A stretch of 64,000 nucleotides of DNA from an uncultured Alphaproteobacteria bacterium (GTDB taxonomy: Bacteria; Pseudomonadota; Alphaproteobacteria; Puniceispirillales; UBA1172), in NCBI GenBank assembly GCA_958431225.1, contig OY288107.1, positions 1,329,501 through 1,393,500 on the forward strand, in the 5' to 3' direction. The translations under genes and the position numbers were made by a program. The notes beneath the pieces were generated by a model, which was not told the DNA's origin, made no database searches, and worked only from the letters and a program-made list of their open reading frames with translations. This document shows, piece after piece, positions 33,144 to 59,182 of the stretch. How positions within the stretch are numbered: the stretch's first letter is position 1; every line of letters begins with the position of its first letter.

Positions 33144-33230
33144 TGGTGCGAGTGGAGAGACTCGAACTCTCAAGGTGTTGCCACCGGTGGATTTTGAATC
33201 CACTGCGTCTACCGATTCCGCCACACTCGC
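33144..33230 (-). tRNA. tRNA-Leu (CAA anticodon)
   Basis: An 87-base tRNA gene including an encoded 3' CCA. The acceptor arms GCGAGTG (33230-33224) and CACTCGC (33154-33148) pair fully. The anticodon stem GTGGA/TCCAC encloses the loop TTCAAAA, with anticodon CAA reading UUG. A long variable arm and the T-loop GTTCGAGTC are present, as expected for class II tRNA-Leu. It lies directly upstream of the YqaA gene and downstream of a strong promoter. Confidence 0.97.
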
Positions 33231-58459: not shown

Positions 58460-58500
58460 TTGTGCTTTCCAAATTGTTGTGGGTGCTATAAAGTCGCCCT

Positions 58501-58627
58501 TGCCAGAATCACTAGTAGTGAGCCGTCTGTCGGGTTGCTCACTAAATACAACACCCCTTGGGGGAATAGGTGGGACTTGTCTTAGCTACTAGTGTTCTGG
58601 CGAAACAGCCCGGCGCTTTGCGTCGGG
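58501..58627 (+). ncRNA. Structured RNA candidate upstream of the secreted nuclease gene
   Basis: A long closing helix is visible: GCCAGAA (58502-58508) and CACTAGTAG (58510-58518) pair with CTACTAGTG (58586-58594) and TTCTGGC (58595-58601), 16 pairs with one bulged T. Inside are a hairpin GTGAGC/GCTCAC (58518-58523 with 58537-58542) and a second interrupted one, ACAA-CACC with GGTG-TTGT (58548-58555 with 58569-58580). A third hairpin, CCCGGCGC-TTT-GCGTCGGG (58609-58627), follows. An extended -10 (TGcTATAAA, 58484-58492) would start transcription near 58499. No known riboswitch class is recognised. It may be a cis-acting leader of the nuclease gene or a free small RNA. Confidence 0.55.
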
Positions 58628-58654
58628 AAAACGTAGCAACAGAAGGACAAGACA

Positions 58655-59182
58655 ATGCGACTTTTCATTATTACCATTACCGCCCTATGCGTTTTCACCG
58701 CCTCCGCCCATAGTGCCGAGCCTCTGGTTTTGAATTCAAAAAATTGGCGCATTATTGATGGCGATACGATTTATGTTGATGACTATAAAATTCGCTTGAT
58801 AGGCATTGAAGCCCCGGAACGCACGCAGAATTGTCGTGATGCTGATGGTAAAAAATGGGCTTGTGGTAAGCGGGCGGGGGATGCTGTTCGGGAGATTTTG
58901 GAGAAGCACGGACAGGGAATTCAATGCACGATTCATGGTGGCGGGTATTATGGACGGCTTTTGGGGGAATGCTTTGCTGGGGATTCTGGGGATGGGGTGG
59001 ATTTGCAAAAAATGCTGGTGCGTCAGGGTTTGGCTCTATCATCGCGGGGGCGGTATGATGATGAGGAAATCCACGCCCAAAAACTTTGCCTCGGTATGTG
59101 GGCGGGGGCGTTTGCTGAACCTAAAGAATGGCGCAATGGCAATCGGCGCATGCACGACCGCGCACCCGAACATTGCCCCTAG
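58655..59182 (+). CDS. Secreted thermonuclease-like protein (SNase domain)
   Basis: A 175-residue protein with an N-terminal signal peptide ending about residue 20 (TASAHSA). The staphylococcal nuclease fold follows: DGDTIYVDDYKIRLIGIEAPE (around residues 35-55, quoted in part) carries the Ca2+-binding aspartate, the first arginine and the catalytic glutamate, and YYGRLLGECF the second arginine. The usual second metal aspartate (IDAPE) is replaced by Glu (IEAPE). Cysteines near the C-terminus suggest disulfides. AGAAGGA lies 8 bases before the ATG, and the structured RNA just upstream may control it. Stops of this gene and tldD overlap by 4. Confidence 0.88.
   Translation: MRLFIITITALCVFTASAHSAEPLVLNSKNWRIIDGDTIYVDDYKIRLIGIEAPERTQNCRDADGKKWACGKRAGDAVREILEKHGQGIQCTIHGGGYYGRLLGECFAGDSGDGVDLQKMLVRQGLALSSRGRYDDEEIHAQKLCLGMWAGAFAEPKEWRNGNRRMHDRAPEHCP

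Follow-up and report, generated by a model that had tools for sequence, protein, structure and literature searches.

What is the long, strongly folded RNA that stands directly before the gene of a secreted nuclease in an uncultured alphaproteobacterium, and what does it do to that gene? The gene lies at 58655–59182 (+) of the window, i.e., the whole stretch of 64,000 nucleotides that was analysed, and encodes an SNase-family protein (Pfam PF00565, E=1.1e-8) with an N-terminal signal-like stretch; it is the gene that we propose to be regulated. The initial annotation of this region described a novel three-helix RNA, starting at an extended -10 box, that could act on the ribosome site of the nuclease gene.

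The leader upstream of the SNase-family gene has a minimum free energy of -60.5 kcal/mol (z = -3.0), and none of 200 shuffled sequences was as stable, in agreement with the annotated view that such pairing is unlikely to arise by chance. All of its parts are on the + strand. The extended -10 promoter box, TGCTATAAA, is present in the sequence at 58484–58492, with a predicted start at about 58499 from which the leader would be transcribed. The closing helix, named P1 here, joins its 5′ arm (58502–58518) to its 3′ arm (58586–58601), both in the sequence and in the fold, and a 3′ hairpin occupies 58609–58627, exactly where it had been placed. Of the two inner hairpins, both present, the one annotated at 58518–58542 is private to the window copy; the elements of that region that recur throughout the family are instead the core hairpin P3 (58538–58574, with 58538–58542 pairing with 58570–58574), which encloses the internal loop AAUANAACACC / GGRAAUAR, and a 9-bp crossing, or pseudoknot, helix formed by GUCGGGUUG at 58529–58537 and CAGCCCGGC at 58606–58614. 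The three-helix model had missed both of them, and a nested fold cannot display the crossing helix together with P1. The complete crossing-helix fold of the window RNA has its 3′ end at 58614, and the 3′ hairpin competes for the 3′ strand of this helix.

Regarding known RNA families, Rfam searched at the gathering score over the whole window found only a tRNA-Leu (CAA) at 33144–33230 and nothing at the leader, so that the absence of any known riboswitch is upheld by the Rfam models. A lenient search of the leader gave one meaningful match, to sRNA-Xcc1 (RF02221), with 31.4 bits and E=9.3e-4, which is below the curated cut-off of 53 bits, as are the scores of other P1-bearing members (42.5 for L050 and 35.2 for L051). 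The RNA is thus novel in that it reaches the curated threshold of no Rfam family, but not in its core, which is a distant relative of RF02221: the two share a core hairpin with the AAUACAA-ACCC...GGGGAAUA loop, a closing helix, which corresponds to the crossing helix here, and a position upstream of a gene.

The source genome holds three copies, including that of the window, as found by nucleotide search, the two others being upstream of lipoprotein-like genes that start MKNRTEENRRNLEMIAPTW...ACGGGG. Relatives in two further genomes (G010 and G045) were recovered twice, by the DNA search and again by that with RF02221, and a search with the core pattern added copies in Alpha- and Gammaproteobacteria. 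A covariance model, R1, was then built from nine sequences; it spans the crossing helix as well as the core hairpin and leaves out the 5′ arm of P1. Within the order it matched 12 of 136 genomes, and within the class 29 of 385, a single genome holding as many as six copies; a total of 94 matches were aligned. A broader model with weaker E-values, R2, was used in one search. Although built only from the new class, R1 retrieves true RF02221 matches, and intermediate relatives bridge the window class and the full RF02221 matches. Tandem copies occur in G010 and G126; in the former (L006:1190-1740) two copies with unrelated P1 arms are located between an MFS gene and an SNase gene, and only the second directly adjoins the SNase gene. 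Some pattern matches were discarded as chance: all those that the first DNA pattern gave in viral contigs, and 6 of 11 in genome contigs, which fell inside unrelated sequence. The RNA family is widespread and largely undescribed.

The alignment of these 94 relatives confirms a structured, conserved RNA with covarying helices. In it, 98.7% of cells are paired, 12 of 16 pairs are doubly changed, and doubly changed cells number 202 vs 43 in shuffles, with slid controls paired at 28–51%, although the alignment was fitted to R1 and these counts therefore lean to the model. The crossing helix is paired in 98.2% of cells, with changes on both sides in five of its nine pairs, and P3 shows both-side covariation in all five of its pairs; most letters of the core internal loop are invariant among the nine seed sequences. 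The family consensus of the crossing helix is GUCGGGUYG pairing with CRGCCYGRC, and members share one order of parts: promoter, P1 5′ arm, GUCGGGUYG, P3 hairpin, variable segment, CRGCCYGRC, 3′ hairpin and ribosome site. Of about 50 members, 16 have their best -10-like hexamer ending 6 nt ahead of P1, and 36 have it ending 5–14 nt ahead. P1 itself is found in 72 class members, the window included, with unrelated sequences. When 58 non-redundant members were compared, the 5′ arm paired with its own 3′ strand at a mean of -31.1 kcal/mol, vs -13.8 kcal/mol with swapped partners (z=-33.5), a pairing that is independent of the search model because the 5′ arm was never part of R1.

The variable segment, which in the window spans 58575–58605 and overlaps the 3′ arm of P1, is complementary to the ribosome site of its own gene. 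Within it, b′ (CUUGUCUU, 58576–58583) pairs over 8 bp with AGGACAAG at 58644–58651, a b2-like target across the Shine-Dalgarno region (58643–58651), and a′ (GCUAC, 58585–58589) is the complement of an a2-like target, GUAGC, at 58633–58637. The pairing of the whole segment with its own leader amounts to -23.7 kcal/mol, a value reached by 4 of 2000 shuffles, and when the three antisense segments of the source genome are compared, the best partner of each is its own leader. In the P1-bearing class as a whole, the segment pairs with its own downstream 90 nt at -22.4 kcal/mol, vs -18.5 kcal/mol when swapped (z=-9.6, 0 of 5000 permutations), and with the PK-to-start region at z=-8.3 (controls: +0.9 for the reverse complement, -0.4 for the same sense); the longest complementary run with the own leader gives z=7.9, although no more than 10 members have their own target ranked first among all 58. 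The RF02221-type set behaves alike (z=-4.8), the permutation controls being near zero for the P1-bearing class and about -1.5 for this small set, and in L073, L074 and L079 the stretch that follows the core hairpin complements the Shine-Dalgarno sequence and a site directly 3′ of the RNA. The relatives from some genomes are paralogues, but segments that were almost identical had been taken out before these tests and before that of the phage loci below; the start codons of the downstream genes were assigned by rule.

An independent set comes from viruses, where at least 120 loci were found and 80 are listed (L134–L213). Among the matches listed, 65 non-redundant phage RF02221-type loci give z=-15 (control -0.2), with b′ falling on the Shine-Dalgarno sequence and a′ on the site just 3′ of the RNA. 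Looking through the phage RNAs of this list, b′ is mostly antisense to the Shine-Dalgarno sequence of the next gene, and a′ often reads UUUCGAA; examples are L152:1797-1873, L185:10383-10456 and L211:682-755.

We consider it probable that the window RNA forms the 5′ leader of SNase mRNA, that an expanded sRNA-Xcc1 (RF02221) superfamily includes it, and that it acts as a C4-like same-strand antisense on the next gene. The annotated reading as a leader of the nuclease gene, with probable control of the ribosome site, is kept in this conclusion. A riboswitch, with which the element had been compared, is not needed, since a segment that is antisense to its own ribosome site throughout the family is a better account of the anatomy. 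Were it a riboswitch, the invariant internal loop would bind a small molecule, while the competition among P1, the crossing helix and the 3′ hairpin, together with the antisense complementarity, would serve as the expression platform; the strongly conserved loop letters, the alternative helices close to the ribosome site and the varied gene contexts, as known for second-messenger riboswitches, are all consistent with it. We nevertheless regard this as unlikely, given that the core is also found in phage C4-like RNAs, whose layout antisense action already explains, that the downstream genes have no metabolic theme, and that no riboswitch of Rfam is matched.

Another possibility, suggested by the literature on sRNA-Xcc1, where it appears as a trans-acting or virulence-linked sRNA with many predicted targets, is that the RNA is mainly a stand-alone trans-acting sRNA whose position before a gene is secondary. 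The cloned sRNA-Xcc1 transcript, which measures 88 nt and has had its ends mapped (PMC2996969), and the fact that the complete fold of the window RNA finishes at 58614 agree with this idea. It is quite unlikely, however, to be the main role, as the antisense segments fit their own downstream gene and not random genes, each segment of the source genome is specific to its own leader, and the promoter spacing is conserved.

The superfamily falls into two classes, which differ in P1 and in the genes that follow. RF02221-type members, which were described as trans-acting sRNAs, come here mostly from phages, prophages or integron cassettes and, unlike the window class, have no P1: those that pass the RF02221 threshold (e.g., L073, L074 and L071) are without the helix, and their upstream flank does not pair with the antisense segment in this way (z=-1.6; z=-1.7 in the phage set). 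The collected phage RNAs of this type mostly precede antirepressor-like genes, and the next genes of RF02221-type RNAs include those with KilA-N, Bro-N, Rha-like and P22_AR_N (P22 antirepressor N domain) domains and SymE. As for the P1-bearing members, 70% of the genes after them have an export-type hydrophobic start, vs 22% of the other ORFs of the same loci, by a rough measure. SNase-like genes recur among them, in the window, in G010 and, in another family, at L063 and L096; the RNA is nevertheless not the conserved leader of SNase genes in relatives that the initial annotation had led one to expect, as SNase orthologues in six species of the genus are without it. At the orthologous loci of the genus and family (L122–L129), some of which are still behind the MFS gene, the RNA is missing, and it was therefore gained or lost at the window locus. 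Lipoproteins with ACGGGGG starts are downstream of the RNA at L021, L091, L092, L097 and L103, in Alpha- and Gammaproteobacteria, and several of these carry a GSVTQSSN-like stretch, so perhaps they form a common surface-protein family. Several copies within one family (L049, L053, L083 and L104, from G405 and G310) are followed by a common stretch that has no clear gene and an open frame reading 'LPKTLRY', and that may be a repeat or a mobile unit.

That the element works only as DNA, as the hairpin of a mobile element such as an integron attC-like site or a palindromic repeat, with no RNA role, is highly improbable: its patchy occurrence, with orthologous SNase loci of the genus lacking it, and the RF02221 relatives carried on integron cassettes upstream of symE (PMC12444791) would suit such an origin, but the long arms differ wholly between copies, G-U pairs and covariation are present, and the orientation and the spacing to promoter and start codon are consistent.

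Among the closest known systems, beside sRNA-Xcc1, is C4 of phages P1 and P7 (RF01695; c4-a1b1, RF03163), whose antisense mechanism is summarised in PMC5320573. Like C4, the RNAs discussed here are on the same strand as their target and just upstream of it, b′ falls on the ribosome site with a′ beside it, a copy of the target sites stands upstream, and the layout has three stems. In annotated phage P1 the order is a1/b1 upstream, c4, and then a2/b2 and icd-ant, with b2 adjoining the ribosome site; the corresponding feature, a′ and b′ complementary to the same-strand ribosome-site region of the next gene, is found in the window class. Unlike C4, the decoy arm is here contiguous with the RNA as the P1 helix, and the targets are mostly exported host proteins. 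Direct homology was rejected, as R1 scores phage P1 c4 at 2 bits, and the RF01695 model gave no match in the window up to E=10; with no match either way, the likeness to C4 is one of layout and function, not of sequence. Rfam places C4 and c4-a1b1 in clan CL00128 and RF02221 in none. From the phage members, sRNA-Xcc1 itself has the look of an antisense RNA of the C4 type that serves antirepressor operons, and none of the papers searched mentions it alongside an antirepressor. A likeness to the SymE/SymR type I toxin-antitoxin systems comes from one RF02221-type relative (L076), which precedes a SymE gene (Pfam SymE_toxin); SymR, however, is an antisense RNA of the opposite strand (PMC12444791), whereas the antisense segment here is upstream on the same strand.

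Taken together, the sequence comparisons point most likely to a C4-like leader that carries its own decoy arm and toggles the translation of mostly exported proteins. In a first state, the 5′ arm of P1 (58502–58518), being transcribed first, would pair with the antisense segment and hide it, the 3′ hairpin would form, as the 3′ strand of the crossing helix can do in 68 of 72 P1-bearing members, and the ribosome site would be free, presumably the ON state. In the second, the crossing helix would close the C4/Xcc1-like fold, which presents the antisense segment in the phage members; P1 would be open, and the antisense segment (58576–58589) would pair with the Shine-Dalgarno region (58633–58651), presumably the OFF state, either in cis or, after a putative processing step, which in C4 is made by RNase P and yields a short active RNA, in trans. 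The two states are probably mutually exclusive, and P1 and the crossing helix probably alternate, since the strand that joins them measures 0–2 nt in 64 of 72 members and P1 about 20 bp; for the same reason a simple pseudoknot in which both form together is unlikely, although the two helices might coexist packed side by side. P1 is expected to give the ON state because it is made first during transcription, and, as it is stronger than the pairing of the antisense segment with the ribosome site (means of -31 vs -22 kcal/mol), the OFF state would need some trigger.

If the antisense reading is true, RF02221 RNAs, which Rfam lists as an sRNA without a clan, would have a mechanism that is testable gene by gene, with the next gene as the first candidate target. 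The long arms vary freely, yet their complementarity, both mutual and with the ribosome site, is retained. Whether a phage-type C4-like control was domesticated and spread over the chromosomes of Alphaproteobacteria, serving there as a modular switch for the translation of secreted and surface proteins, the decoy arm turning it into a self-contained two-state leader, is a proposal for which we hold the chances to be even. In the chromosomal class, whose copies number up to six in one genome, genes of lipoproteins and secreted proteins apparently are under a phage-type on/off device.
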